DNA of 14,691 nucleotides. Source: a bacterium. Its GTDB lineage: Bacteria > JAMCPX01. Positions 1 to 14,691 of the stretch are shown here, piece by piece; within the stretch, counting starts at the first letter, position 1, and every line of letters begins with the position of its first letter. The stretch spans positions 1-14,691 of the forward strand of contig JAJYJX010000044.1 in assembly GCA_021789095.1 (NCBI GenBank), written 5' to 3'. The notes under the pieces are model-generated. The model did no database searches and had not been told where the DNA came from. It saw nothing but the letters and a program-made list of their open reading frames with translations. A program made the position numbers and the translations under genes.

Positions 1-481
1 TGAGAACTACTCAGTGGATATTATATCTTCAATGCTAAAATCCATAGAGGTCCCGGGAGAAGAAGAAGAAAAACTCAGGATACTTGCACTTGCATGTGAA
101 AATGATGCTTATCCGGCATTTGATATAGCAGGCATGAACCGCACTATATTCAATCCCAATGTAAGAATTATACCGGTAAGGTGCCTTGGATCTGTTAATA
201 TTGTATGGATAGCCGATGCACTCTCAAGAGGCATAGATGGGATAATGCTTATTGGATGCAAGTACGGCGATGATTATCAGTGCCATTTTATAAAGGGAAG
301 CGAACTTGCCAACAGAAGAATGGAAAATCTCAAAGAGGTGTTGCAGAGACTTGTTCTCGAGCCTGAAAGGGTTAAGGTTATGGAACTTGCCATTTCAGAT
401 TATGATAAAATACCGACAGTAATGAATGATTTCATGGCAAAGGTTACCGAACTGGGCCCCAATCCATATAAGAGCTTTTAA
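1..481 (+). CDS. qmoB: QmoB C-terminal part (5' end outside the window), MvhD-like iron-sulfur domain
   Basis: The frame is open from base 2 through the left edge, so the GTG at 14 is not taken as the start; this is the 3' end of a longer gene. The visible residues form an MvhD/HdrA-associated 'delta subunit' domain. Cysteines occur in a LACEN segment, in VRCLGS, and in a GCKYGDDYQCH stretch followed by KGSELANRR; in this family such cysteines hold a small iron-sulfur cluster. In QmoB this domain is fused to the C-terminus of an HdrA-like FAD/Fe-S protein, and the ending GPNPYK-x-F fits QmoB as I remember it. QmoABC is the membrane complex linked to APS reductase in dissimilatory sulfate reduction. 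The stop lies 11 bases before qmoC, which has its own AGAGG ribosome site, so the two are co-transcribed. The alternative, a free-standing MvhD subunit of an Hdr/Mvh complex, is less likely because qmoC follows directly. Confidence 0.85.
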   Translation, partial: ENYSVDIISSMLKSIEVPGEEEEKLRILALACENDAYPAFDIAGMNRTIFNPNVRIIPVRCLGSVNIVWIADALSRGIDGIMLIGCKYGDDYQCHFIKGSELANRRMENLKEVLQRLVLEPERVKVMELAISDYDKIPTVMNDFMAKVTELGPNPYKSF

Positions 482-492
482 AAGAGGTAAAC

Positions 493-1662
493 ATGGCTGA
501 TAATGTAATAGAAAGTGATATTGATTTTATAAAAGACGTAACAAGGTTAGGCGGCAGTTCGTTGAAAAAGTGTTATCAATGCGCCACCTGCTCTGTGGTA
601 TGTTCCCTGTCATCGGACGAAAAGCCTTTTCCCCGTAAAGAAATGATATGGGCGCAATGGGGTTTAAAAGACAGGCTTTTGTCCGATCCCGATGTGTGGA
701 GATGCTATCAGTGCGGTGATTGCTCGGTTTATTGTCCAAGAGGGGCGAAGCCTGGAGAGGTTATGGGCGCCATCAGGAATTACAGCTTCAGGCATTATGC
801 GTTTCCAGGTTTTATGGGGAAGGCTCTTGGCAGTGCAAAATACCTGCCTCTGCTTCTTGCCGCACCCGTAATACTGTTTTTGATTATACTTGCACACCTT
901 GGTAATCTGTCATCTGTACCAGCCGGTGATATTGTGTTTGCAAAATTTCTTCCGCATCTCTATGTTGACCCGATCTTTATAACGGTGAGTGTCCTTGTCG
1001 CTGCGGCAACGGCCATTGGCATTACAAGGTTTTGGAAGAATATGAATAAAAATAATCTACAGGGAAAACAGTATGGCAAAACAAGTATAGTGAACAGCAT
1101 TGTATTGGCCGCCGAAGAGGTCTTGACGCATAACAAGTTTAAAAAATGCGATGCTAATAATATAAGGTACTCAGGCCATCTTATAGTATTCTACGGCTTT
1201 CTGGCTTTGTTTGCTGTTACAACGATAGTGTTCTTCGGGTTATATGTGTTCGGGCTTGAACTGCCGCTGAAATTGACAAACCCCGTTAAGATACTCGCGA
1301 ACATCGGCGCAGTTGCACTTATTACAGGGTGTACCATAGCGGTGTATAACAGACTGGTCAGAAAAGATAAATCCGGAGAAAGTTATTATTATGACTGGCT
1401 TTTCCTGATCGTGCTTTATGCAATAGGTATAACGGGTTTGCTTACAGAACTCGTAAGGCTGTCGGGTTATGCATCTGCTGCTTACTGGTCTTATTTTGTT
1501 CACCTTGTTTTAGTGTTTTTCCTTATAGCTTATTTCCCGTATTCAAAATTTGCGCACCTTATCTATAGATTTGCAGCTATTGTCTATGCCAGGTACGCCG
1601 GTTTGAGTGAACCTGTTGCGGAAACAACGTCTGAGACGATAGAAACAAAGAATGTTGCGTAA
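493..1662 (+). CDS. qmoC: QmoC, membrane subunit with HdrC-like ferredoxin domain and cytochrome b-like domain
   Basis: At 389 residues it has the expected QmoC length. Residues 27-37 (CYQCATCSVVC) and 71-81 (CYQCGDCSVYC) are two CX2CX2CX3C motifs. The usual fourth ligand in each is a more distant cysteine or is supplied within this HdrC-type fold, consistent with [4Fe-4S] clusters. From about residue 117 there are roughly six hydrophobic segments (about 117-137, 155-178, 226-252, 266-287, 300-322, 330-349). Histidines 214, 229, 337 and 355 near them are candidate b-heme ligands, as in HdrE/NarI-type cytochromes. This HdrC-HdrE fusion is characteristic of QmoC, which takes electrons from menaquinol and passes them to QmoAB and then APS reductase. 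An AGAGG ribosome site precedes the ATG. HdrDE of methanogens keeps these parts on separate or differently fused proteins, so QmoC is preferred. A short low-complexity acidic/Thr tail ends the protein. Confidence 0.92.
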   Translation: MADNVIESDIDFIKDVTRLGGSSLKKCYQCATCSVVCSLSSDEKPFPRKEMIWAQWGLKDRLLSDPDVWRCYQCGDCSVYCPRGAKPGEVMGAIRNYSFRHYAFPGFMGKALGSAKYLPLLLAAPVILFLIILAHLGNLSSVPAGDIVFAKFLPHLYVDPIFITVSVLVAAATAIGITRFWKNMNKNNLQGKQYGKTSIVNSIVLAAEEVLTHNKFKKCDANNIRYSGHLIVFYGFLALFAVTTIVFFGLYVFGLELPLKLTNPVKILANIGAVALITGCTIAVYNRLVRKDKSGESYYYDWLFLIVLYAIGITGLLTELVRLSGYASAAYWSYFVHLVLVFFLIAYFPYSKFAHLIYRFAAIVYARYAGLSEPVAETTSETIETKNVA

Positions 1663-2018: not shown

Positions 2019-2978
2019 ATGTTCAACGCATATCTTCCTATTGCCCATGTCCAGGTTAATCTTTTATGGATGCTGGCATTTGGCTTTCTTGTGGGAAGTA
2101 TGGCGGGTTTCTTCGGTGTTGGAGGAGGCTTTCTTATCACACCAATGCTGAATGCTATTTTTGGTGTACCCTATCCTATTGCAGTCGGCTCAAGCCTTTC
2201 CCTGCTTACCGGTATTACAGTAGCTTCAACTATAAGACACAGCAAATATGGTAATATAGATTATAAACTCGGGTTGATAATGATTGCAGGAACCGCCCTC
2301 GGGGTCAATACGGGTGCAAAGCTTCTCACTGAAATCAAAAATTTGCAGAATATTTTATTAATAAGACTTGGATATCACATAGATCTTCTCGAAATAGTAT
2401 TGAGCCTTGCCTATATAGTTATGTTAGGTTTAATCGGATTGTCCATATTCAGAGAGTCACTGAAAACAAGGAAGATGACAAAAGTGGCAGCCATGGGTGC
2501 GCCTGTTTCAGGCGAACCTGAGGCATCAGCGAGTGTGAAAAGAATAAGGGCATTAAAGATTAAACCAATGATCAGTTTTCCTGCGTCCGGCATTTCAGGT
2601 ATTTCCGTGTGGGTAATTGCGGGCATTGCATTTGCAGTCGGGATGCTGAGCGGCTTTATGGGCATTGGCGGCGGATTTATAATGATGCCGGCACTTATAT
2701 ATATCATTGGATGCCCGACAGTTATTGCTGTGGGAACAAGCCTTTTTGGCATCCTTTTTACCGCTGCATATGGGGCATTTACATACTCGCTTCAGGGCAA
2801 TATTGATCTCGTTCTGGTTGTCTCAATCCTTATCAGCTCAGCAATAGGATCTGTTATAGGCGCATCGTTTACAAGAAAAGCCGGAGGGCCGAATGTAAGG
2901 ATGCTCTTCTCATTGATTGCCTTCATTGCTGTCGTAATTGTGGCGGTTAAGCTTGCAATGACCCTTCTCCATACATAA
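2019..2978 (+). CDS. TauE/SafE (TSUP) family membrane permease A
   Basis: A 319-residue polytopic protein with the internal repeat typical of the TSUP family: GFFGVGGGFLITP at about 30-42 and GFMGIGGGFIMMP at about 212-224. Each is followed by an AVG(S/T)SL segment (IAVGSSL 54-60, IAVGTSL 236-242). Two bundles of hydrophobic helices are separated by a hydrophilic loop at about 145-190. TSUP proteins move sulfite, sulfoacetate, sulfonates or other small anions across the inner membrane. Next to qmo, a role in sulfite or sulfate traffic is plausible but not shown by sequence. The start at 2019 lies 3 bases after small protein A, with a GGTGGAGG ribosome site inside the end of that gene. It is paralogous to the permease at 9031-10080 but lacks that protein's extra C-terminal helix. 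Confidence 0.9.
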   Translation: MFNAYLPIAHVQVNLLWMLAFGFLVGSMAGFFGVGGGFLITPMLNAIFGVPYPIAVGSSLSLLTGITVASTIRHSKYGNIDYKLGLIMIAGTALGVNTGAKLLTEIKNLQNILLIRLGYHIDLLEIVLSLAYIVMLGLIGLSIFRESLKTRKMTKVAAMGAPVSGEPEASASVKRIRALKIKPMISFPASGISGISVWVIAGIAFAVGMLSGFMGIGGGFIMMPALIYIIGCPTVIAVGTSLFGILFTAAYGAFTYSLQGNIDLVLVVSILISSAIGSVIGASFTRKAGGPNVRMLFSLIAFIAVVIVAVKLAMTLLHT

Positions 2979-3035: not shown

Positions 3036-5558
3036 TTGAAACTGCCAATAAATCTGTTTAAAGAAAAATTATCCCTTGGTAAAATTGTTCTGCAGCAAAA
3101 ATATACCGATTATCTTAAACTATTGTCTGACAACGAGCTCGTTCTAAGGATTATGGCAGAGTTAAAAGAGAAATCATCAGGTGAGGAGGTCTTTGAAATC
3201 GGGTACCTGCGTTTAAATGTGGAAGCAATACTCTCACTTGTAAAAAAGATAACAAACAGGCTAAACAGACTTTCTGAAAATAAATACCAACCCCTTGGCA
3301 GGGTCTATGATAATATTAAATCAAGCATGAACAGCATATTGTCAAGGCGCAAGGATATACCGGTTGATGAGCTGGTCCTGATGTATGGAGATATAGAGAA
3401 GGGGAAGCTCGACAGTGTTGGAGGCAAGAACGCGAACATAGGTGAAATTAAAAACAGACTCGGTTTGCCTGTACCTGAAGGCTTTGTAGTAACGGCTTAT
3501 GCGTATAAGAAGTTCCTCGAGTATAATCAACTTGAGAAGAAAATTCAGTATATGCTGTCAGGACTGGACACAAATGATTTTAAAAATACGGTTACGATAA
3601 GCAAACAGATTCAGGTAATGGTAAGGGATGCCGTTTTAGAGCCGGAGCTTGAACAGGTGATAAAGAACAAGACTCTCCTGTATATAAAAAAGTACGGCAG
3701 TAATGTTTTATTTTCTGTGCGAAGCAGTGCAGTCGGCGAAGGTACAGAGTTCAGCTTTGCAGGCCAGTATTCAACATTCCTTGGTGTGCACGCACATGAT
3801 ATCCCGGTGTACTACAAGGAAATAGTGGCAAGTAAATATGCGCCAAGAGCCCTTTTTTATCTTACCAACAGGGGATTTAAGGAGGATGACATAGCCATGA
3901 GTGTCGGCTGCATGGTTATGATTAATGCAAAATCAAGCGGCGTTATGCACACGATTAATCCAGTTAACCCGCAAAAGAACACGATCGTTATAAACTCAAT
4001 CTGGGGACTTGGTAAATACATTGTCGAAGGCAATATCCAGCCGGATATTTTTGAAGTGTCAAAACAGGAGCACAGCATCATTGAGTCAAAGACAGAACAT
4101 AAGGCACATATGCTTGTTATGAAAGAAAATGATGGTAGTACAACGGAAGATGATGTGCCGGCAGACAAGATGGATGTACCGTCTCTTACTGAAGAACAGC
4201 TGAGGGAGCTTGCGGGTTGTGCAAAGATACTAGAGACCCATTATCAGCATCCTCAGATAGTTGAATGGGCATACGACAAGGATGGAAAGCTTTTTATACT
4301 TCAGACATCTCCACTTATAATGTTCAAACGCAGTATGCCGGATATTCATATAGATACGACAAAGCACAAGCTGCTGGTAAGTGGTGCGGAAACGGCAGCA
4401 GCGGGAATTGGATTCGGCCCTGTCTGCTTTATTGATACAGAAGAAGATATTGTGCATTTCCCCAACGGGGGCATTATGGTTGCAAGGTATTCATCTCCAA
4501 AGTTTGTTAGTGTTATGAACAGGGCGAAAGCAATAGTTACAGAGATAGGAAGTCCAACAGGCCATATGGCAACACTTGCAAGGGAGTTTCAGATTCCGGC
4601 AATAGTGAACGCCGTCAATGCCGCCTCGGTACTCAGGAATGGTATGATGGTGAGCGTGGACGCAGACCATGGATGCATATATGAAGGGTATGTCGAAGAG
4701 CTGGTTAGACAGCCCCATGAGAAAAAGGGCATATTCAGGGATACGCCGGTGTTGGTTATCATGAAAAAGATTCTTGAATATATCACACCTTTGAACCTGA
4801 TAGATCCCTACAGTCCAAATTTCAGCGTAGGTTCCATACGCACACTGCATGATATTATAAGGTTCGCACATCAGGCATCCATGAATGAAATGTTTATTAT
4901 TGCACAGCATGTATCAACTGACAATGTTTCCGCAATGAAACTTAAAACACCATCCCAGTTCGAGATTTATATAATAGATCTGGGGGGGGGACTTAAAGAT
5001 AGTAAAGATATCTCGGAGTCCTCAATCGTATCAATTCCCTTTCTGGCTTTCTGGAAAGGGATTAAACTGGAGCGTATCGACACCAGACCCGTGAATAAAA
5101 ATGGTTTTTTCTCGGTGCTTATGAATACCATGGCAAATCCTCAGTTACAGGAAAGGCTGTACGAGAAAAATCTTGCATTAATAAGCAAGGAGTACATGAA
5201 CTTCAATATAAGAATGGGGTATCACATATCAACCATAGAAGGGCTCTGTACACAAAAAGCAAATGACAACTACATCAGGTTTATTTTTCAGGGCGGCGGC
5301 GCCGACCTTGAACGAAGGATGAAAAGGGCGCAACTCATTGCCGGAATTCTGAAAAAGTATAAGTTCAATGTAAAGCAGACAGAGGATATCGTCAGTGCCA
5401 TATGCACAAAATGCGGCCGGGAAAAATTTGAAATAATCATGGACATGCTGGGAAGGTTGACTATTTACACAAAACAGCTTGATATGCTGATGGCAGGGAA
5501 TGCAGCCATGCTCGATGATTATGTACAAACTTTTTTGAATGAAATTATGCAGATATAA
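3036..5558 (+). CDS. PEP-synthase-like protein 1: ATP-grasp plus phosphohistidine domain with a novel C-terminal domain
   Basis: An 840-residue protein. Residues 1-110 form a helical region shared with Pps-like 2. Residues about 115-430 are the PPDK_N ATP-grasp domain (VGGKNANIGE with K131; SVRSSA with R229; SFAGQY; GLGK; VEW with E410; ILQTSP with Q423). Residues about 445-555 are the swivelling domain with catalytic-type His510 in SPTGHMATLARE. From about 570 the usual PEP/pyruvate TIM barrel is missing. Instead there is an unrecognised domain with HDIIRFAH (605-612), IDLGGGL, NIRMGYH (724-730) and FQGGG. A canonical family member would transfer the beta-phosphate of ATP through His to an acceptor; the acceptor here is unknown. 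The Arg expected in ILQxRP is Ser425, which may weaken ATP binding. The TTG start is supported by an AGAGG site six bases upstream and no nearer ATG until residue 40. It follows the permease and is 12 bases before the YkgJ-type gene. Confidence 0.85.
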   Translation: MKLPINLFKEKLSLGKIVLQQKYTDYLKLLSDNELVLRIMAELKEKSSGEEVFEIGYLRLNVEAILSLVKKITNRLNRLSENKYQPLGRVYDNIKSSMNSILSRRKDIPVDELVLMYGDIEKGKLDSVGGKNANIGEIKNRLGLPVPEGFVVTAYAYKKFLEYNQLEKKIQYMLSGLDTNDFKNTVTISKQIQVMVRDAVLEPELEQVIKNKTLLYIKKYGSNVLFSVRSSAVGEGTEFSFAGQYSTFLGVHAHDIPVYYKEIVASKYAPRALFYLTNRGFKEDDIAMSVGCMVMINAKSSGVMHTINPVNPQKNTIVINSIWGLGKYIVEGNIQPDIFEVSKQEHSIIESKTEHKAHMLVMKENDGSTTEDDVPADKMDVPSLTEEQLRELAGCAKILETHYQHPQIVEWAYDKDGKLFILQTSPLIMFKRSMPDIHIDTTKHKLLVSGAETAAAGIGFGPVCFIDTEEDIVHFPNGGIMVARYSSPKFVSVMNRAKAIVTEIGSPTGHMATLAREFQIPAIVNAVNAASVLRNGMMVSVDADHGCIYEGYVEELVRQPHEKKGIFRDTPVLVIMKKILEYITPLNLIDPYSPNFSVGSIRTLHDIIRFAHQASMNEMFIIAQHVSTDNVSAMKLKTPSQFEIYIIDLGGGLKDSKDISESSIVSIPFLAFWKGIKLERIDTRPVNKNGFFSVLMNTMANPQLQERLYEKNLALISKEYMNFNIRMGYHISTIEGLCTQKANDNYIRFIFQGGGADLERRMKRAQLIAGILKKYKFNVKQTEDIVSAICTKCGREKFEIIMDMLGRLTIYTKQLDMLMAGNAAMLDDYVQTFLNEIMQI

Positions 5559-5570
5559 GAAAGGAACAGT

Positions 5571-6305
5571 ATGAGTATAACACTTTACAGCAAGTTCAGA
5601 TTTTCGTGTCACAAAGGATTAAAGTGCTTCACGAGGTGCTGCAGGAATGTGAACATATTTTTGACGCCTTACGATGTTCTTCGTATGAAGAACAGAACCG
5701 GGGTGCAATCAGACGAATTCCTGAAAAAATATACAAAAGCTCTTGTGAGCAGCAGCTTCAGTTTGCCCGTGGTTCTGCTGAAGATGAAAGATGATGAAGA
5801 TAAATCCTGTCCATTTCTGACAAATGGCGGATGCAGTATATATGAAGATAGGCCGTGGTCCTGCAGGATGTATCCGCTTGATAAGGATATCGAAGACGAT
5901 GAGTACAAACTCATCGTTGGAGAAGACTTCTGTCTTGGGTTAAAAGAAGGTAAGGAGTGGATTGTTGAGGATTGGTTTGAGGATCAGGGCTTGATTCCGT
6001 ATGACACGTATAATCAGCTGTTCAACCAGATTGTCAATGCCGAAAGTAGCTGGGGTAACAAGGTTCCGGACAAATCGGTCATAGATATGTTTTATATGAC
6101 CTGTTACAATATTGATAAATTCAGGGGCTTTGTTTTTAACAGTAGTTTCTTGAATCTTTTTGAGGTGGACGAAGGACTTAAAGAGAGGATCCGGGTTGAC
6201 GATCCGGAACTGCTGAAGTTCGGGTTTAAATGGCTAAGGTTCGGGTTGCTTGGCGAAAAAAATCTTTTGATAAAAGAAAGCGCGCTGAAGAAGAAAAAGA
6301 AATAA
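5571..6305 (+). CDS. YkgJ-type (UPF0153) cysteine-cluster protein
   Basis: A 244-residue soluble protein. Cys13, Cys19, Cys23 and Cys24 form a CX5CX3CC cluster. It is followed by SCPFL (Cys80), GGCSIYEDRPWSCRMYP (Cys88, Cys98) and Cys121. This pattern (CC near the N-terminus, CPFL, then C-x-IY-x-x-RP-x-x-CR) defines the YkgJ family, described as zinc- or iron-chelating; its molecular role is not established. The C-terminal half has no motif I recognise and ends in a lysine-rich tail. An AAGGA site precedes the ATG, and the gene starts 12 bases after Pps-like 1, so it is the last gene of the plus-strand operon. Its presence may mean that a metal or Fe-S centre is handled alongside the module. 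Confidence 0.85.
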   Translation: MSITLYSKFRFSCHKGLKCFTRCCRNVNIFLTPYDVLRMKNRTGVQSDEFLKKYTKALVSSSFSLPVVLLKMKDDEDKSCPFLTNGGCSIYEDRPWSCRMYPLDKDIEDDEYKLIVGEDFCLGLKEGKEWIVEDWFEDQGLIPYDTYNQLFNQIVNAESSWGNKVPDKSVIDMFYMTCYNIDKFRGFVFNSSFLNLFEVDEGLKERIRVDDPELLKFGFKWLRFGLLGEKNLLIKESALKKKKK

Positions 6306-6321
6306 TTCTTACCATGATGTC

Positions 6322-6341
6322 ATTCCCGAGACATCGGGAAT
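6322..6341. terminator. Strong hairpin between convergent genes, dRS3-like repeat unit or bidirectional terminator
   Basis: ATTCCCGA at 6322-6329 and TCGGGAAT at 6334-6341 form a perfect 8-bp stem with a 4-base loop. It has the form ATTCCC-N8-GGGAAT, like the dRS3 repeat of Neisseria, and it is continued by CCAGA as in many dispersed proteobacterial repeats. It lies between converging transcripts where terminators are expected. No T-run follows directly; a T8 tract lies at 6381-6388. Confidence 0.5.
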
Positions 6342-6397
6342 CCAGATTTCCATTCAGGGTGTAAGTCTTAAAGACAGTAATTTTTTTTGGTTAAGTC

Positions 6398-8995
6398 TTA
6401 TTTTGCAAATGCGTTTTTTGGGTTAAACTCAAAATTATAGTTACCCTCAAGGAAGGCTTTGGTAAACCATTCAACGCTTGCATCTGTTGTCATGAGCATG
6501 TCCAGATGCAGTGCACACAGTGTCAATCTGCCAAGCAGATCCAGTTTTTCCTCTATCACTTTTCTGCCATATTTTCTCATATGTGCCGTGATGCGATCAC
6601 CGGTTGTTTCTGTGACAAAACCGAGAGAATTAAGTACGTTTGTAAGGAACTTTGCTCTCCTTAGCCTTCGTATATCTTCGGATGCACCGCCCTGAAAGTA
6701 AAATGTAATATAGTTGTTGCTCTTGACATCATCGCAGTAGGCATCCACGGTACTGAAATGATAACCTACCCTTGAGTTAAAATTGAAATAGTATTTTGAA
6801 ACAGCTGCGTAGGTACGTTCACCGATGGGTTTTTCATGCTCAACAATGCGTGTTGTACTTGAAGATATAACTGAAAAGAATCCTTTCAGATCAAACCTGC
6901 GTGGTTCCCACCACCTTATATCTTTATGCGTCATACCCTTCATAAAGGCATAAAACGGGGCAGAAGCGATGTTATGCATTTTAATTTTGCCCTTATGCAG
7001 CTCTCCCTCGATTCCACCCCCGATATCCAGTACATAGAGATCAACCGGTAAACGTATACCTACCTTTATTGCGGGTACAGCGTCCGATATACCGTCACAG
7101 ATGGAGAACATGCTTGCTATGGCTTTCTCATGACAGTATCTTGTTATATCGTGTATGGTATCACAAAATTCAGGTTCAAATTTGCTGTCCATCGGATCCG
7201 TGAGGTGCAAAGGTGTTATGTGCTGTGATACTTTTTGAAGCAATTTATGCACAGGTGTATCTTTCATAAATGCCCGGTTTGATTGCTCTTTCTTTACAAG
7301 CTGTTTGACAATGCCCCTGTAAACATAGGCTGAGTCAGCATCAACCGTAATTTCGTCATTGGTTTTTATTACCGATGTGGCTGATTTTGTATCGGTAATA
7401 CTGGGTATGTTAAACTCCCTTGCCATTGAAGCCATGTGACCCGCTACACCGCCTGTATCGGTAATAATGGCGTTGATCCTGTCCATGACCCTTACCAGTG
7501 CCGGCGATGAATGCGGTGCTAAAAGTACCGCTCCCGCAGGTACATTATTGATGTCTTTTTCATCCTTTATAACAAATGCTTTCCCCATGCCAATACCTGG
7601 GCAAATTACACTTCCGCCGTCAACAAGCACGGGATATTCATTGTACTTCTTTCTACTCCCTGCAATACCTGGAGAGAATCTTAACGGTCTTGTTTGAAGA
7701 ATGAAAAATTGATCTGATTTGTCAGTACACCATTCTATGTCCTGAGGAGAGGTATAATAATTTTCTATCTGCAGCGCTTTTTCAGCAATGATACCAACCC
7801 GATCATCGGACAGGCACGGTTTGTTTTTTTCCTTCTCATCAACGGCAACGGTATCAACCCCGTTTAACGGGGCTGCGACAAGCATGCTGTATTTTTCTGC
7901 ACTATGCTTCTCCAGCACCTTCAGGGTGATGCGATCAACGATATAGACATCGGGTGTAACGGTTCCATCAACTGCTGGTTTGCCCAATCCTCTTACGGCA
8001 TTTATTATAACAGTGTTATTGCCAGGATTATTCGGATCCTTTGTATAAATAATGCCTGCAGTGTCTGCATCGATCATTATCATGCAGCCGACCCCCATTC
8101 GCTGATCAGTGTCTATCAGTCCTTTATGGGCGCGGTACACGATAGCAGGCGGGGAATAAAGGCTGGCAATTATCTGTTTGTAAGCCGGCAGCACGTATTC
8201 TTTGCTTACGTTAAGCACAGTTGTATATTGTCCTGCAAATGAGAGTGCTCCGTCTTCGTTTACATTACTGCTTCTTACTGCAACACGGACATCTCTTTCT
8301 GCAGAACGTGCTAATTTGTCGTAAGCGCTGTTTATGGCATTAAGGAGGCTGTCCGGAACATCCGCCTTGAGGATCATTGATTGTATCTCTTTGCTGATTG
8401 TATCTATAGTATCCTGATCCGCAAGATCAAGAATGCTTAATTTTTTATGAATTTTTTCGTACAGCTCATTGTTCTTCATGAATATATCGTAGGCATGCGT
8501 TGTTATGGCAAAACCGTCGGGCACGGGCAGTCCTTTTCTGTTTCTTATTTCGCCGAGATTGGCATTCTTGCCGCCAACGTCATCCAGCATATCCCTGGTT
8601 ATCTCATGATAAGGGATAACAAATTTCTGCGTTGACGGTGCGTGATCAATTTTCAACGCCTGCTGGATCCTGCCGTTTACCCGATCAAGTACGCCGTATA
8701 AAGGCATATAACGGTTGCCGGCTACATGGTTAAGGGATTTTATCATCTGGAATGTGCATAAATTTATCTTATCTGCCGCAGATTTTATGAAATCTATACC
8801 GAAGGGATCGTTGCCTGGAAGTTTATCCTCCAGTTCGCCGGTAAGTTTCAGAATATCATTGTTGTAGTGCAACAATTCCTGGAAATAGTGGTATTTCTCA
8901 ATTATTAAAGAATGCGGGTTTATACTGTACAGCCTGTTTGCCGAAGTATATGTATGTTTAAGGGTGCGCAGCCTGTTTAAAATTCTATGAATCAT
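6398..8995 (-). CDS. PEP-synthase-like protein 2: ATP-grasp plus phosphohistidine domain with a novel C-terminal domain
   Basis: An 865-residue paralogue of the proteins at 3036-5558 and 12618-14691, and the most canonical of the three. It has a helical N-terminal region (about 30-115) with a KY...LL...N..IL...EL pattern shared with Pps-like 1. The ATP-grasp domain carries K143 (VGGKNANLGE), R241 (VRSSNVNED), E421 (DIEW), Q434 and R436 (ILQTRP). The swivelling domain has His520 in GGVAGHMASMARE. The C-terminal domain from about 580 has HDITRYCH (615-622), LDIGGGI, SRVGYH (741-746) and FQGGA, and no PEP-binding barrel. Enzymatic phosphate transfer from ATP through His520 is plausible; the acceptor is unknown. 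The ATG at 8995 is the only possible start after an in-frame TAG, but it has no ribosome site; a strong site 30 bases upstream serves a 12-codon ORF overlapping the start. It follows permease B by 35 bases. Confidence 0.87.
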   Translation of the reverse strand: MIHRILNRLRTLKHTYTSANRLYSINPHSLIIEKYHYFQELLHYNNDILKLTGELEDKLPGNDPFGIDFIKSAADKINLCTFQMIKSLNHVAGNRYMPLYGVLDRVNGRIQQALKIDHAPSTQKFVIPYHEITRDMLDDVGGKNANLGEIRNRKGLPVPDGFAITTHAYDIFMKNNELYEKIHKKLSILDLADQDTIDTISKEIQSMILKADVPDSLLNAINSAYDKLARSAERDVRVAVRSSNVNEDGALSFAGQYTTVLNVSKEYVLPAYKQIIASLYSPPAIVYRAHKGLIDTDQRMGVGCMIMIDADTAGIIYTKDPNNPGNNTVIINAVRGLGKPAVDGTVTPDVYIVDRITLKVLEKHSAEKYSMLVAAPLNGVDTVAVDEKEKNKPCLSDDRVGIIAEKALQIENYYTSPQDIEWCTDKSDQFFILQTRPLRFSPGIAGSRKKYNEYPVLVDGGSVICPGIGMGKAFVIKDEKDINNVPAGAVLLAPHSSPALVRVMDRINAIITDTGGVAGHMASMAREFNIPSITDTKSATSVIKTNDEITVDADSAYVYRGIVKQLVKKEQSNRAFMKDTPVHKLLQKVSQHITPLHLTDPMDSKFEPEFCDTIHDITRYCHEKAIASMFSICDGISDAVPAIKVGIRLPVDLYVLDIGGGIEGELHKGKIKMHNIASAPFYAFMKGMTHKDIRWWEPRRFDLKGFFSVISSSTTRIVEHEKPIGERTYAAVSKYYFNFNSRVGYHFSTVDAYCDDVKSNNYITFYFQGGASEDIRRLRRAKFLTNVLNSLGFVTETTGDRITAHMRKYGRKVIEEKLDLLGRLTLCALHLDMLMTTDASVEWFTKAFLEGNYNFEFNPKNAFAK

Positions 8996-9023
8996 TGGTT
9001 CTGCCGACTATAGGGCAAATCAT
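8985..9023 (-). CDS. Possible 12-codon leader ORF overlapping the Pps-like 2 start
   Basis: On the minus strand an AGGAAGG ribosome site overlapping the permease B stop is followed by ATG at 9023 and the peptide MICPIVGRTNDS, then TAG. It ends 11 bases inside Pps-like 2, whose own ATG lacks a ribosome site. This arrangement would allow translational coupling. It may also be chance; only conservation in relatives could decide. Confidence 0.3.
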   Translation of the reverse strand: MICPIVGRTNDS

Positions 9024-9030
9024 ATCCTTC

Positions 9031-10080
9031 CTAAACATTTTTCATCGCCGCTTTTTTGCTCTTTAACTCTTTTCTTACCCCCTGGACCAGTCTGACAGTT
9101 ATAAATGTGCATAGTATAATAACCAGACCAAAAAGTATACCGGTTGAAATACCCGTACATATGTTCCCGTACTGCGGGAATTTACTTGCAACTTGCTTTA
9201 ATAAAATTGAAATGAATACACCTATGACAGCCAGGCCGAAAGCATACTTTATGGCGAACCCCTTTATATATTTAGTGGCTGTTGTTCCAATCTGTGCACC
9301 AACAGCAGAACCTATTAACATGATGAGGGCTGCAAGCAATTCCGTTCTGCCTTTCAAGGTATACGTAAAGGCGCCGTACAGTGCTGAAAACATGACCCCA
9401 TAAAGGCTTGTACCTACAGCAACGTGAGTAGGGCAGCCAATGAGATATATAAATGCAGGAAGAACAATAAGCCCTCCTCCTATCCCCAGTGTACCCGAGA
9501 TAAGACCTATAAAAAAGCTGATCAAAACAGGCAGCCATAAAGAACAATATACGCCGGCTGTCTTAAAATGTATCATTGGCGGGACATTTATCCTGTGTAA
9601 TCTCTTATACCAGTCTATGCCGACAGCGGTTTCCTCTGTTGCACCGACTGTAAACTGTTTTTTTTGCTTAGATATATCAACAAACACGGTCCATGAAATA
9701 AATGTAAGCAAGATCATGTAACAGTATCTGAGTACACTGCCTACAAGTCCGATATGTTCCAGGTATATGACTATACGCGCGCCAAGTTCAACTCCTACAA
9801 GTGTACCTATTATCATTATAGTCCCTAGTTTATAATCAACATTCCCGAATTTTGAATGCCTCATGGTGGATATTATGGAGTTTGCGGACATCTGTGTAAG
9901 GTCTGTTCCAATGGCGAAACTCATGGGGAACCCGAGGATGTTAAGGCCTGGTGTAACAAGCCACCCGCCACCGACTCCAAAAAAGCCGCCGATAACACCA
10001 ACACCAAAACCAAGTATAATCAGGCCCGGCCAGGATATTAATACACCGGATATGGGCATATGGATATAAAGCCAGTTCAT
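9031..10080 (-). CDS. TauE/SafE (TSUP) family membrane permease B
   Basis: A 349-residue polytopic membrane protein paralogous to permease A. The two TSUP repeat motifs are GGFFGVGGGWLVTP at about 31-44 and GTLGIGGGLIVLP at about 196-208, followed by AIGTDL and AVGTSL. The sequence STMRHSKFGNVDYKLG after the first repeat matches STIRHSKYGNIDYKLG in permease A. A hydrophilic loop lies at about 136-175. It differs from A by an extra C-terminal hydrophobic helix (about 308-330) and a basic tail. The expected role is passage of sulfite, sulfonate or a related small anion across the inner membrane; the substrate cannot be read from sequence. The ATG is preceded by a full AGGAGG site located in the 9 bases after small protein B. 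It lies between small protein B and Pps-like 2, exactly as in module A. Confidence 0.9.
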   Translation of the reverse strand: MNWLYIHMPISGVLISWPGLIILGFGVGVIGGFFGVGGGWLVTPGLNILGFPMSFAIGTDLTQMSANSIISTMRHSKFGNVDYKLGTIMIIGTLVGVELGARIVIYLEHIGLVGSVLRYCYMILLTFISWTVFVDISKQKKQFTVGATEETAVGIDWYKRLHRINVPPMIHFKTAGVYCSLWLPVLISFFIGLISGTLGIGGGLIVLPAFIYLIGCPTHVAVGTSLYGVMFSALYGAFTYTLKGRTELLAALIMLIGSAVGAQIGTTATKYIKGFAIKYAFGLAVIGVFISILLKQVASKFPQYGNICTGISTGILFGLVIILCTFITVRLVQGVRKELKSKKAAMKNV

Positions 10081-10089
10081 AAATCCTCC

Positions 10090-10386
10090 TCAGTGTTTTT
10101 TTGTCCGCAGATCGATCCCGATGTTGTTCATTATAAGATCAGCAAGTATACCGATTGCCAGGCCCGTAACAGGAACAATAATGATTGTCACAAGGGCGCA
10201 GTAAAGCTTATTTGTATTGTAGAGATTAGCATACCAAAGCCAGAAACCGGAAAGCCCTTTTGTGTCCGCAATGAATGAAAGAGGCCTTTCACTTTCAGCA
10301 GCAAAAAGGTTTGCAGGGAATAAAATAAAAAAAAATATTACTGCAGCTGCAAATGCTTCCAGTCTTTCAAGGAGTGATTTCTTCAT
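10090..10386 (-). CDS. Small membrane protein B, with signal-like N-terminal helix and one further membrane helix
   Basis: A 98-residue protein. Residues 1-30 look like a signal peptide or signal anchor (KK, hydrophobic AFAAAVIFFFILFP, then an ANLFAA-type possible cleavage site). After a short exported segment there is a second hydrophobic helix at about 62-87. The C-terminal 60 residues resemble small protein A: IAD motif, LYxxL, PVxG in the helix, GID-type exit and a basic end. The ATG is preceded by GGAGGTG at good spacing. The TGA stop merges with the AGGAGG site of permease B. The conserved pairing with a TSUP permease in both modules argues for a functional partner of the transporter. 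I do not recognise a named family. Confidence 0.8.
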   Translation of the reverse strand: MKKSLLERLEAFAAAVIFFFILFPANLFAAESERPLSFIADTKGLSGFWLWYANLYNTNKLYCALVTIIIVPVTGLAIGILADLIMNNIGIDLRTKKH

Positions 10387-10403
10387 TATTCACACCTCCA
10401 GAT

Positions 10404-10422
10404 ATTGTATACAGTATACAAT
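10404..10422. promoter_or_regulatory. 19-base palindromic operator before module B
   Basis: ATTGTATACAGTATACAAT is a perfect palindrome of two 9-base arms around a central A, located 18 bases before the small protein B start codon. The style (TTGTATAC arms) resembles GntR-family sites, but the regulator is not in the window. It shares TATACAGTATAC with the site at 1799-1810 and GTATACAATTTT with 3005-3016. It overlaps a -10-like TATACT on the minus strand. Confidence 0.6.
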
Positions 10423-10446
10423 TTTCCTAAAGGATAACACCATGAC

Positions 10447-10452
10447 TGTCAA
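10447..10452 (-). promoter_or_regulatory. Candidate -35 box of the module B promoter
   Basis: The minus strand has a perfect TTGACA starting 6 bases after the response regulator stop and 60 bases before the small protein B start. At 17 bases spacing the -10 would be TAGGAA, which is weak; the better TATACT lies further down inside the palindrome. A promoter here is therefore likely but its -10 is uncertain. Confidence 0.4.
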
Positions 10453-10458
10453 GGGTTA

Positions 10459-10896
10459 TCAGTATTGTTGTCCAGGTTTTGGGAATGAAGTCCTGACCTC
10501 AGCCTTGCTTATTTTATCGTCTTGCTGCTTTTTCCTTTCATATGCATCCCTGATCTTCTTAACAAGTTCATCCATATCCGTAGGTTTCATAAGGTAATCG
10601 AACGCACCCTTTTTCATTCCTTCTATACCTGACTGAATGGAGGCATAGCCTGTCAGCAGTAAGACCTCCAAAAGGGGCTGCATCTGTTTTATTTCACCGA
10701 GCAATGTGATCCCGTCCATTTCAGGCATTCTTACATCAATTATTGCTACATCGTAGGGTTCGTTTTTTATTCGTTTTATGGCCTCTTTTGCGCTTGTTAC
10801 ATACGATACATTAAACCCCCGTTTGTTAAGCCTTTTAGCAAGAGTCTCAACAAATTCAATTTCATCGTCGACCAGCAATATGTTTATATATTCCAT
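10459..10896 (-). CDS. Single-domain (CheY-like) response regulator
   Basis: A 145-residue receiver protein. The acidic pair D10-D11, phospho-acceptor D54 (in IIDVRMPEMDG), T82 and K104 (in LMKPTDMDEL) are all present, so it should be phosphorylated normally. After the receiver there is only a charged tail of about 30 residues with no DNA-binding or enzymatic output domain. It must act through protein contact or phosphorelay. It begins 18 bases after the kinase stop with an AAGGGGGTGA ribosome site, so the kinase is its probable partner. Receivers of this type are often cut-down NtrC-like regulators. The downstream neighbour is the promoter/operator of module B, but this protein cannot itself bind that DNA. 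Confidence 0.92.
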   Translation of the reverse strand: MEYINILLVDDEIEFVETLAKRLNKRGFNVSYVTSAKEAIKRIKNEPYDVAIIDVRMPEMDGITLLGEIKQMQPLLEVLLLTGYASIQSGIEGMKKGAFDYLMKPTDMDELVKKIRDAYERKKQQDDKISKAEVRTSFPKPGQQY

Positions 10897-10914
10897 AGTC
10901 TGTCACCCCCTTTT

Positions 10915-12591
10915 TTATATCTGGAATTTCCCGTAATCAGCCGGAAGACTGATTATAAAAGTGGTGCCTTTCTCCGGCTTACTTTCAACGGATATGTTCC
11001 CCCCAAACCCTTTCACGATTTCATAGCATATCGATAGCCCGAGCCCTGTACCGCCTTTATGCAGCTTTGTTGAAAAGAAAGGTTCAAAAATTCTCGGGAG
11101 GTACTCTTCGGGTATGCCGTTGCCATTATCCTTGATTCTTATTTCAATGCCGTCATTCCTTTCGTGAGTTGTAAGGATTATTTCGCCTTTTCCTTTAATA
11201 GCTTCCATTGCATTTGTAATGATATTGAGGAAGACCTGCTCTATCTGTGAGGCATTCCCATGCCACAGGGGTATATCTTTCTGATAATCCTTGATGATTG
11301 CAATATTTTCATGCTTTGCCTCCGTTTCAAGGAAGAATATGGCTTCGTCAAGCAACTGGTTTATGTTAACCGGCTCTGCGCCTTCTCCCACCCTTCTTGA
11401 AAATCCGAGCAATCTCGAAGTGATGTTCTTGCAGCGATCAACCTGCTTTTTTATCTGGGCTATGCTTCTTCTAAACTCGGTATAGTCTATCTGAGAACCC
11501 TTTCCTGTCGCATCGTTTATCAGGTCATGCATCCATCCCGATTCATTATTAATGATTGCTGCAGGATTGTTAATTTCATGTGCAATGCCTGCAGCCAGCC
11601 TGCCTATGGCCGCCATCTTTTCTGCCTGGATCAATTGGTTGTTAAGAGTGGCTCTTTGCATATCCGAAGCATGTAATCTGTTTGTGAACCATGTGGATAC
11701 TACATACGAAATAATGAAGATGCACAGAAGACCGGTTATAAACAGCACCTTCCCGACTTTCATCGCTCCCGTGAGCGGTTCTATATTGTTTTTCATGGCC
11801 TGCAGGACCACAACGACCCAGTCGCTGTTTGCTATCCACGATTTGGCACAGTAGAATTTGTTATTATTTTTATCCGTTACCTCGCTTATTATCGTGCCGG
11901 AACCCGGCTGTTCGAGATTTATAAAAGATTTTTGAGCAATGATCCCATTATTTGCCGGCGGGATCTGGTATATGCCGGCCTCATTTATTATAAAAGCTTC
12001 TACAGGAGCTTCCACTTCAGCTATCCTCATAAGGGATCTGAGTGCGTCTATATTTATAGTACTGCGGAGGATGAACGTCTTGCCGTCCGAGGGTTTTTTA
12101 ACAGCTATGATAAAGTGCGGGAACCTTCTGAATCCAAGGAAAACATCGCTCTTATAAACACCTTTGACCATTGCCTCTTTAAACCATTTTTCGTTGAGGT
12201 AATTCATGCCTCTCAGGCTATATGGTCCTACATAACTGACGGCTTTTCCGTTTTGATCCACAATACTTAAATCGACGTAATCTTTTCCCTCTTTCTGAAG
12301 AGATTCAAAGATTCTTTCAAGATTGTTTTCTTTTTTCAAATAATCATATGTATAAAGATTACCGACAACAGACAACTGTTCGGTCTTTTCTTTCAAGAAG
12401 AGCTCTATGGCATCTTTCCTGTTTTCAGCTATGTTTACAAGAACGCTTTCTATCTTGCTGCGTATTGCCTTGTTATAGTAGGATGAACTCATAAAATAGA
12501 TGACCGCCAAAGGAATAAGACTTGCAAGAAAGACCGTAAAGAACAGTTTATACCTGAGCAGCCTGTAATACTTTGACTTATGGCTCTTCAT
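10915..12591 (-). CDS. Membrane sensor histidine kinase with periplasmic dCache-like domain
   Basis: A 558-residue protein. One membrane helix lies at about 15-34, followed by an extracytoplasmic region of about 240 residues. Features such as VDQNGKAVSYVGPY, NEKWFKEA and the SDVFLGFRRFPHFIIAVK segment fit a double Cache sensor. A second membrane helix is at about 281-300. There is no clear HAMP or PAS domain. The kinase core has the H-box GIAHEINNP with H338, the N-box NIITNAMEA near N460, the G1 box DNGNGIP (488-494), the F-box FEPFFST and the G2 box GGTGLGLS (513-520). dCache kinases sense small organic ligands; the ligand here is unknown. It starts 26 bases after Pps-like 3 and is followed by the response regulator, so the three are probably one transcript. 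The ribosome site at its ATG is poor. Confidence 0.92.
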   Translation of the reverse strand: MKSHKSKYYRLLRYKLFFTVFLASLIPLAVIYFMSSSYYNKAIRSKIESVLVNIAENRKDAIELFLKEKTEQLSVVGNLYTYDYLKKENNLERIFESLQKEGKDYVDLSIVDQNGKAVSYVGPYSLRGMNYLNEKWFKEAMVKGVYKSDVFLGFRRFPHFIIAVKKPSDGKTFILRSTINIDALRSLMRIAEVEAPVEAFIINEAGIYQIPPANNGIIAQKSFINLEQPGSGTIISEVTDKNNNKFYCAKSWIANSDWVVVVLQAMKNNIEPLTGAMKVGKVLFITGLLCIFIISYVVSTWFTNRLHASDMQRATLNNQLIQAEKMAAIGRLAAGIAHEINNPAAIINNESGWMHDLINDATGKGSQIDYTEFRRSIAQIKKQVDRCKNITSRLLGFSRRVGEGAEPVNINQLLDEAIFFLETEAKHENIAIIKDYQKDIPLWHGNASQIEQVFLNIITNAMEAIKGKGEIILTTHERNDGIEIRIKDNGNGIPEEYLPRIFEPFFSTKLHKGGTGLGLSICYEIVKGFGGNISVESKPEKGTTFIISLPADYGKFQI

Positions 12592-12617
12592 GCAGCACCA
12601 TTATAAACGGTAGAAGG

Positions 12618-14691
12618 TTAAAGCACATCATATTTCTGCTCTTTAAATGCATTGTAATATTTGTCGATATCATTATCTGCAACCAGGGATATATCAAGCC
12701 TGTTAACAAACCCCAATAATCTGCCGAGGAATTCCAGTTTTTCTTCCATTTCTTTTTCCGGGAGGTTATGTATCCGGGAATTAATAATATCCATTGTCCT
12801 TAGGGAGGTATAGTTTGCATCATTGAGGATTTTTTCTATGAGCGCAGTTCTTCTGCTGCGCCTGTCCAGTGCATTTGCTCCACCGCTAAATCTGAAATTT
12901 ATATAATTTGATTCATGGTGTTCACCTATATATGCATCAACAGTAGCAAAATGATATCCCACCCTTGAGTTAAGATTCAGATAATTTTTCGATATAAATA
13001 CATAGCTTGGCGAACCCAGACCACGCATGGATGTACTTTCGTCAGTCAAGTAATTCGTCATGGCTGAAATAAGACCAGAAACATTGATGTTTCTTTCTCC
13101 TGACCATTTAATTCCTTTATGGATCATACCGCGCCATAGAGCCTGCATCGGTATTGATAGTACGTATTTAAGGGGTGCATTGTTTTCCGGTGCATCCTCC
13201 GCAATACCTTCACCAAGGTCGAATGCTATAAGGTTCATTGGAACAGGGGTGATAATAGTGCGTGCCCTGCAGCCTTTCGATACCTTATTGTCGCACGTTT
13301 TAAACATCTCCTCTATGGCTGTCTGATGGACAAACCTTACAATGTCATGTATGGTCCTGCACTTCAAAGCCTGGGTGTTGGAGTTTACAGGGTTTGGCAC
13401 ATTTAAAGCGGCGATATCCTTTAGTATACCACGGAGCAGTATGGCTGTTGGCGACATTTCTTTTTTTTCATCGGCAGTGTTGAGTAATCTTTCCACCCTG
13501 CCTTCATATATTACTTTGTTGCTCGCATCCAGGGTGATTATTGTGCCGTTTTCTATCGATATATCGGGTACACCGAATAATGAGGGTATGTTCAGTTCTC
13601 TTGCAACTGTCGCAAGATGGGCTGTAACATGCCCCTGCAGCGAAATTATGCCCGATGCTTTTTTAAGCAATATTGCAAGCCGTGGATCTGCAGTTTTACT
13701 TATTATAATACCGCCGGGCGGGAACAGCATAATATCAAAGGAGGTGTCTACATTAAACGCGGTACCTGCTGACGTTCCCGATGATGCCGTTATTCCCTTG
13801 CCATCCGAAATTATCTTGTTGCGTATTACGGATATGCCGGTTTCTTTTTTAAAACGTGTACCCTTTTTATCCAATTCCCTGTACCCGAGTACATACAATT
13901 CTCCATTCTCATCTATGGCCCATTCAATATCAATGTTTGATGCATCAGCATTTTCTGGTTTCGATAATGTTTCAGGGAATTGCGCACGGCACTGCAATAT
14001 ATAAATGTTAGATTTGTTGTCAATGACCCATTCTATATCCAGAGGAGTGCCGTAAATCTTTTCAAGCCTCCTGCCGATACGGAAGAGTTCTATGATATGA
14101 TCATTATCTACACTCTGGTTTCTCATAAACCCGGGTGCTACCTTTTCTTCTTTAGTCCCGTATTCATCGCATTTAAGCATTATGGGTTTTTCCCTTATCG
14201 ATGTGGAAATCAGGGTATGCATGTTTTTATCGTAAATAAATGTGTCAGGGATAACGGAACCGTTTACAAGGTATAGTCCGAGTCCATAAATAGACTGTAT
14301 CAGAAGTAAATTTTTTTTTTGCCAAGATGTGTACATTACGCCGGAAGATTCTGCATTGATCATCCGCTGAACAGCTACGCACATGCTGATGTCTTTTATG
14401 TCGTATCCGTGCACAGAAGAATAAACCAGCGCCTCCGGAGTGAATTTGCTTGAAATTATATCTTTATAAGAGTCACTGATCTCGTCAGAGGATATATTAA
14501 GCGTGGATCTATATTGCCCTGCGAAGCTTGTATATGCATTTGATTCGAACAATGCAGAACTTCTCATGGACGCACGCAATTCAGTATCAAAAAGAGCCCT
14601 CATCGCATGCAAGGCTTCAGAAATGGCCTCTTCCAATTCAATCGGCATTTTTGCTTTTATGATCAGGTTTCTTATCCGGCTGCTTATTTGA
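12618..14691 (-). CDS. PEP-synthase-like protein 3 (N-terminus outside the window)
   Basis: The frame stays open to the right edge, and the residues before the first ATG (14648) continue the alignment to Pps-like 2 (ISxxIxxxIxKA), so the gene is truncated by the window rather than starting at 14648. About 690 residues are visible: the later ATP-grasp part (MRSSALFES, SFAGQY, GLG, DIEWVID...ILQCRA), the swivelling domain with phosphohistidine-type His in GHVTAHLATVARE (codon at 13617-13619), and the same novel C-terminal domain (TIHDIVRFVH, FDLGEGI, SRVGYHFATVDAY, FSGGA). An extra segment repeats the end of the ATP-grasp domain: DIEWVIDN...ILQCRA is followed about 36 residues later by DIEWAIDE...VLGYRE. 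The PEP/pyruvate barrel is absent. It heads the transcript containing the sensor kinase and regulator. The acceptor substrate is unknown. Confidence 0.85.
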   Translation of the reverse strand, partial: QISSRIRNLIIKAKMPIELEEAISEALHAMRALFDTELRASMRSSALFESNAYTSFAGQYRSTLNISSDEISDSYKDIISSKFTPEALVYSSVHGYDIKDISMCVAVQRMINAESSGVMYTSWQKKNLLLIQSIYGLGLYLVNGSVIPDTFIYDKNMHTLISTSIREKPIMLKCDEYGTKEEKVAPGFMRNQSVDNDHIIELFRIGRRLEKIYGTPLDIEWVIDNKSNIYILQCRAQFPETLSKPENADASNIDIEWAIDENGELYVLGYRELDKKGTRFKKETGISVIRNKIISDGKGITASSGTSAGTAFNVDTSFDIMLFPPGGIIISKTADPRLAILLKKASGIISLQGHVTAHLATVARELNIPSLFGVPDISIENGTIITLDASNKVIYEGRVERLLNTADEKKEMSPTAILLRGILKDIAALNVPNPVNSNTQALKCRTIHDIVRFVHQTAIEEMFKTCDNKVSKGCRARTIITPVPMNLIAFDLGEGIAEDAPENNAPLKYVLSIPMQALWRGMIHKGIKWSGERNINVSGLISAMTNYLTDESTSMRGLGSPSYVFISKNYLNLNSRVGYHFATVDAYIGEHHESNYINFRFSGGANALDRRSRRTALIEKILNDANYTSLRTMDIINSRIHNLPEKEMEEKLEFLGRLLGFVNRLDISLVADNDIDKYYNAFKEQKYDVL

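Follow-up and report, generated by a model that had tools for sequence, protein, structure and literature searches.

The 14,691-nucleotide window, which is the whole of contig C174 of a 2.15-Mb draft genome, encodes three paralogous relatives of PEP synthase (here P1, P2 and P3) in which the PEP/pyruvate barrel is absent and an unrelated C-terminal domain stands in its place. This odd end domain, together with the anion transporters and sensors found next to genes of the family in many bacteria, suggests that these proteins are probably switches for transporters and not the enzyme that their label names. The specific proposal made here, that barrel-less PEP-synthase relatives switch anion transporters by means of an ATP-charged phosphohistidine, has in our judgement about an even chance of being right. 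It starts from what was observed, namely the domain make-up, the conserved residues, the absence of the barrel and the linkage to TauE permeases and receiver-only regulators in several phyla.

Three paralogs and their common C-terminal domain

An earlier sequence-only reading had placed three PEP-synthase-like paralogs in this DNA, each with an ATP-grasp and a swivelling domain, and this was borne out. P1 (positions 3036 to 5558, plus strand) starts at a TTG codon and has 840 residues, P2 (6398 to 8995, minus strand) has 865, and P3 (12618 to 14691, minus strand) has at least 690 residues in the window, where the contig end cuts the gene. Contigs C174 and C25 are joined by an exact 115-nt overlap (window positions 14577 to 14691; end of C25, locus L005), and the first 220 codons of P3 lie on the end of C25, giving a full protein of 872 residues. 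A fourth copy in the genome, of 864 residues, is found on contig C50. Neither this copy nor the continuation of P3 figured in the earlier reading, nor did a conserved N-terminal region of ~110 residues that is common to all copies and predicted to be helical.

P1, P2 and P3 match the PPDK_N family (PF01326, ATP-grasp) with Pfam E-values of 5e-88, 4e-90 and 2e-65, and the PEP-utilizers family (PF00391, swivel) with 8e-21, 4e-18 and 8e-14, respectively. In P1 the N-terminal region is followed by the ATP-grasp domain (residues 126 to 442), the swivel (475 to 546) and the new C-terminal domain (positions 4734 to 5558, plus strand, as delimited by alignment of the paralogs). The same order is found in P2, with the ATP-grasp domain at residues 139 to 440, the swivel, including the predicted catalytic His520, at 486 to 555, and the C-terminal domain at 576 to 859 (positions 6398 to 7270, minus strand; alignment and AlphaFold2 model), while that of P3 was placed by alignment at 12621 to 13448 on the minus strand. 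A survey of catalytic residues in 77 full-length members, with P2 numbering, found K143, R241, E421, Q434 and H520 to be invariant in all 77, H520 being the residue that aligns with the phospho-His of PEP synthase, and D419 and R436 to be kept in 75. All seven are present in P2 and P3.

No Pfam match was obtained in the last ~280 residues of P1, P2 or P3, and the family libraries tried recognise these proteins through the two familiar domains only. The three C-terminal regions can nevertheless be aligned with one another over about 280 residues, close to the ~270 of the earlier reading. Those of the four genomic copies share 29-36% identity and 37 invariant columns, and 91 more relatives could be added, so that the alignment holds 95 sequences; in it, by domain numbering, D41, R44, H47, P105, G112, G195, R205 and D257 do not vary, and many further columns hardly do. 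In 77 sequences, with P2 numbering, the invariant positions of the domain are H615, D616, R619, H622, P680, G687, G770, R780 and D832.

In a whole-genome search, the barrel family PF02896 was matched in only two places, both outside the family genes, by frames of 952 and 593 residues that are consistent with PPDK and PtsI, respectively. Comparison by hhalign of the C-terminal domain with PtsI and PPDK barrel profiles from the same phylum gave probabilities of 0.5% and 0.4%, against 99.5% for the positive control of the PPDK barrel with that of PtsI. The AlphaFold2 model of the domain from P2 (pLDDT 87, pTM 0.78) is mixed alpha/beta, with a predicted order of secondary-structure elements that differs from the (beta-alpha)8 order of a TIM barrel. 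The family search, the profile comparison and the predicted fold therefore agree that the domain is something other than the PEP/pyruvate TIM barrel, as had been claimed for all three paralogs, and the profile search and structure prediction that the claim had called for returned no confident barrel match.

Foldseek found no match for the domain in PDB and BFVD at E <= 0.001, which does not prove that the predicted fold is a new one. With VIA the best Z was 5.8, the same level as that of unrelated rows; an arginine-kinase-like fold was rejected at an rmsd of over 14, and a MotA-like fold, with a middling Z only, was rejected as well. Since no confident match was found, the fold offers no hint of a ligand. 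The single candidate for a stand-alone C-terminal domain, a 552-residue protein (L056), is in all likelihood a copy disrupted by a frameshift, because the absent N-terminal half sits just upstream. Frames of 1330-1833 residues in Desulfovibrionaceae, considered as fusions that might name a partner, are ordinary family proteins, most of them lengthened at the upstream end by a spurious stretch of open frame, the DNA being high in GC.

Two variants of the architecture were also seen. Proteins of 1043-1182 residues (L091, L099, L100 and similar) have an extra C-terminal region of ~190 residues, weakly lectin-like in L091 and L099, and several of their loci have MFS and chromate-transporter genes nearby. 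A member from Poribacteria (L070, 352-3705) carries an N-terminal extension of ~260 residues with no Pfam match.

Distribution of the family and its gene neighbourhoods

P1 lies just after qmoC (493 to 1662, plus strand), whose product is over the NCBIfam equivalog cut-off and which is preceded by the FlpD-domain end of a probable qmoB gene (2 to 481, plus strand; Pfam and NCBIfam). It is located between a gene for a TauE/SafE-family permease (2019 to 2978, plus strand, 57 bp upstream of P1; Pfam) and one for a CxxCxxCC protein, putatively metal-chelating (5571 to 6305, plus strand, 12 bp downstream). On the minus strand, closely spaced, P3 is followed by a histidine kinase with a dCache-like extracytoplasmic sensor (10915 to 12591, 26 bp downstream of P3), a receiver-only response regulator of 145 residues (10459 to 10896), a small membrane protein of 98 residues (10090 to 10386), a second TauE/SafE-family permease (9031 to 10080, 35 bp upstream of P2) and P2. 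The small membrane protein had been missed by the list of open reading frames, in which a 100-residue cut was applied, and once it is included the series reads P3-kinase-receiver-membrane protein-TauE-P2. Upstream of the completed P3, on C25, an HdrD/DsrK-like Fe-S protein is encoded, and the copy on C50 is flanked by genes for a sensor protein (dCache and PAS) and a YeiH-like (PF03601) carrier.

A scan of a genome collection rendered 314 encoding stretches, from which 79 loci were kept, belonging to Desulfobacterota, Nitrospirota, Bacteroidota/Ignavibacteria, Acidobacteria, Zixibacteria and Poribacteria. The family is thus common in sulfate reducers, in Nitrospirota and in several other phyla, being present in 7 of 9 genomes of the phylum of the window and in 54 of 79 Desulfovibrionaceae genomes, with one to nine copies per genome. 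Tight triples, within about 7 kb, also occur elsewhere (e.g., on G037:C5 and G011:C19). Three copies within 12 kb, which the sequence-only reading had considered remarkable, are therefore ordinary for this family, and the mutual identity of P1, P2 and P3 (31-36%) indicates that they are old paralogs and not the product of a recent amplification.

Two-component proteins are encoded near the family gene in 54 of the 79 loci and TauE in 27, with Usp proteins in 21, sodium:sulfate-symporter-type (Na_sulph_symp) carriers in 12 and CBS proteins in 10; MFS, chromate-transporter, CitMHS and YeiH carriers were found as well. Across 22 Desulfovibrionaceae genomes, a TauE start lies within 10 kb of at least 43 of 83 copies, where TauE numbers and genome size would predict 2.9; the p-value of this comparison is only indicative, as tandem copies are not independent and the weakest TauE matches fall outside the list used. 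Copies linked in this way (<=10 kb) are present in 21 of the 22 genomes, and 40 of the 83 copies have none of the listed TauE starts at that distance on their own contig. In the phylum of the window there are 2 TauE genes in the two genomes without the family and 4-6 in the others. The type of neighbouring transporter was considered as a trait that might track the protein tree, but TauE and DASS labels are scattered over it, so that the subfamily does not tell the transporter type.

Most of the complete, non-hybrid response regulators encoded near family genes (38 of 50) are receiver-only, which suggests that their output would be exerted by contact with a protein and not by binding to DNA. 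The 98-residue membrane protein is also kept beside TauE and PEP-synthase-like (PEPS-like) genes in Bacteroidota, Ignavibacteria, Zixibacteria and MAGs labelled as Deltaproteobacteria. In two Bacteroidota loci (L063 and L067), two to three TauE genes, the small membrane protein, a kinase, a receiver and the family protein follow in that order and face a set composed of qmoC and the CxxCxxCC gene, with apr-like genes beyond it in L063.

Loci of the Nitrospirota type (L061, L045, L065, L073 and L092) have sodium:sulfate-symporter-like and CitMHS carriers and CBS proteins, and also an LCIB-type carbonic anhydrase; the carriers, together with this enzyme, might have to do with bicarbonate transport.

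A possible phosphohistidine switch for anion uptake

With the barrel absent, and with nearly every member retaining the ATP-grasp catalytic residues and the phospho-His, the earlier suggestion that the family either phosphorylates something else or uses the histidine for regulation named the right pair of options; of these, the neighbourhoods would favour the regulation of transporters. The conserved catalytic residues suggest that, in a first step, the ATP-grasp domain would phosphorylate the swivel histidine from ATP, a charging like that of PEP synthase, PPDK and rifampin phosphotransferase (RPH). The swivel would then turn to the C-terminal domain, in the place of the barrel, where either a phosphate acceptor or a controlling ligand would be bound. 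Finally, the Cache-type kinase and the receiver-only regulator would determine, through protein-protein contact, which state the PEPS-like protein is in, and that state would let the neighbouring permease move its anion, the permease being TauE/SafE here and a DASS, YeiH-like or chromate-type carrier at other loci; gene order and published genetics are the basis for this last step. The charging, the acceptor, the contact with the receiver and the control of the permease are all steps that we infer, and taken together they make the most economical reading. That the neighbouring transporters belong to different families counts against it, as do the 40 copies with no TauE start listed nearby, and no biochemical test of any family member was found. 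It is also possible, although we put this more tentatively, that the C-terminal domain is an undescribed acceptor or sensor and that the set of kinase, receiver, dikinase, membrane protein and TauE constitutes an unrecognised non-transcriptional route for the two-component control of anion uptake through an ATP-charged phosphohistidine protein.

The published genetics comes from Korte and co-workers, whose study was the only directly relevant one found in the literature on TauE with PEP synthase. Insertions in a gene cluster of D. vulgaris and D. alaskensis are reported there to confer nitrate resistance (PMC4001038). As described, the cluster comprises the TauE permease gene DVU0251, genes for hypothetical and PtxB-like proteins and for a PAS kinase, the 360-bp receiver gene DVU0247, and those for a protein with PPDK_N and mobile domains (DVU0246) and a phosphatase (DVU0245) (PMC4001038). 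Transposon insertions in the TauE, receiver or PEPS-like gene led to the same nitrate-resistant phenotype, and single D. vulgaris mutants of DVU0246, DVU0247, DVU0250 and DVU0251 grew equally with and without 100 mM nitrate; a leaky thiosulfate transporter was suggested by the authors (PMC4001038). For some cluster genes of D. vulgaris the phenotypes differed between pooled and single-mutant tests, and polar effects of the transposon insertions do not seem to have been excluded (PMC4001038); both points weigh against the switch reading.

The arrangement of TauE, PtxB and family genes was located by coordinates in several Desulfovibrionaceae genomes. The syntenic loci that were read encode, in order, a kinase, a receiver of 119-120 residues, a family protein and a phosphatase-like protein of ~370-380 residues, and in four of them the family protein has the C-terminal domain (E <= 4e-80). 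From the published gene order and domain list, DVU0246 itself would carry this domain as well. Like the family proteins, DVU0246 and Dde_0604 are listed with PPDK_N-type and mobile domains and without a barrel (PMC4001038), and TauE, a receiver and a histidine kinase of the PAS type are their reported neighbours, where the window has TauE, a Cache kinase and a receiver. The window, in contrast to the nitrate cluster, lacks PtxB-like and phosphatase genes and has the Cache kinase, the small membrane protein and the Qmo genes. How sulfur oxyanions and nitrate enter sulfate reducers matters for oil souring and the sulfur cycle. No mechanism has so far been available for the published nitrate-resistant mutants, and the switch proposal supplies one that can be tested. 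Its main value lies in the family-wide tie to anion permeases and receiver-only regulators, with published mutants at hand.

The main rival is a metabolic dikinase, in which the phospho-His would pass its phosphate to a small molecule bound by the C-terminal domain (ATP + X -> AMP + Pi + X-P). X would perhaps be the imported anion or a metabolite derived from it, and the linkage to transporters would then reflect a common substrate and not regulation. The catalytic residues are kept, the many invariant His, Arg and Asp residues of the C-terminal domain are those expected of an active or anion-binding site, and RPH, which acts on rifampin, is a precedent for a swap of the acceptor domain (PMC4844700). 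However, a simple enzyme of metabolism would not usually be linked to receiver-only regulators and Cache kinases. Paralogs that number as many as nine in one genome, often next to a transporter or sensor of their own, fit better with dedicated control, and in the nitrate cluster losing the protein has the same effect as losing the permease (PMC4001038). We therefore regard the dikinase reading as rather unlikely, and prefer the switch reading.

The P1 subgroup and comparison with named enzymes

In P1, D419 is replaced by I and R436 by S (P2 numbering), with the phospho-His kept. The same two residues are missing from its orthologs in related genomes (L013, L018, L020, L022, L024 and L029), and from L103, in a MAG labelled as Deltaproteobacteria, which groups with P1 with 99% support and whose gene comes directly after qmoC, with a CxxCxxCC gene further upstream. 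The shared Qmo linkage and altered ATP site of P1 and L103 indicate that a Qmo-linked subgroup is conserved. This group retains the histidine and lacks D419 and R436, so the complete reaction with ATP may be missing from at least one subgroup, a point against the switch reading, and proteins of the P1 type may regulate without being fully catalytic. It could be the case, at least for the P1 group, that nucleotide binding and domain movement provide the signal and that phosphoryl transfer is not used. The loss of D419 and R436 in P1 orthologs from seven genomes and in the Qmo-linked L103 would agree with this, but the invariance of H520 and the four other residues across the 77 members, the full set in 75 of them, and the retention of all seven in P2 and P3 make it improbable.

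The ATP-grasp and swivel domains of the family gave PEP synthase, RPH and PPDK as best Foldseek matches. PEP synthase (PpsA; PDB 2ols, 8a8e, 9dae) and PPDK have these domains in the same order, ATP-grasp then swivel, and share with the family all seven catalytic residues (Lys, Arg, Asp, Glu, Gln, Arg and His); they end in the barrel, whereas the family has the unrelated ~280-residue domain and, in addition, the helical N-terminal region. RPH (PDB 5hv1, 5fbs) uses the same phosphotransfer machinery, with a similar ATP-grasp domain, on a different acceptor domain; its order is ATP-grasp, acceptor and His, compared with ATP-grasp, His and new domain in the family, and alignment by sequence is confined to the two common domains. 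That the family might be genuine PEP synthase or PPDK whose barrel has diverged strongly, a reading for which the 28-35% identity of the first two domains to canonical PEP synthases could be adduced, is ruled out with very little doubt by the lack of PF02896 matches, the hhalign probabilities and a predicted fold that is not (beta-alpha)8, and the genome has a separate PPDK-like gene.

No carbohydrate-binding domain of alpha-glucan water dikinase was detected by Pfam in the window proteins, and PADLOC gave no match to anti-phage defence systems. In a search for plasmid-borne relatives no record covered 80% of the query, the annotated best matches being canonical ppsA. P1 and P2 scored 48-49 bits with the PPDK equivalog TIGR01828 (cut-off 843), and 200 and 243 bits with the RPH equivalog NF041857 (cut-off 999). 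With the PEP synthase equivalogs they reached 377 and 386 bits (NF005057, cut-off 598) and 357 and 359 bits (TIGR01418, cut-off 740), scores so far below the cut-offs that a careful pipeline would not call the family PEP synthase. The warning that automatic labels would mislead thus holds for the 'PEP/pyruvate-binding' name of Pfam and InterPro and fails for the NCBIfam equivalogs; for annotators, members of this family are not PEP synthases.
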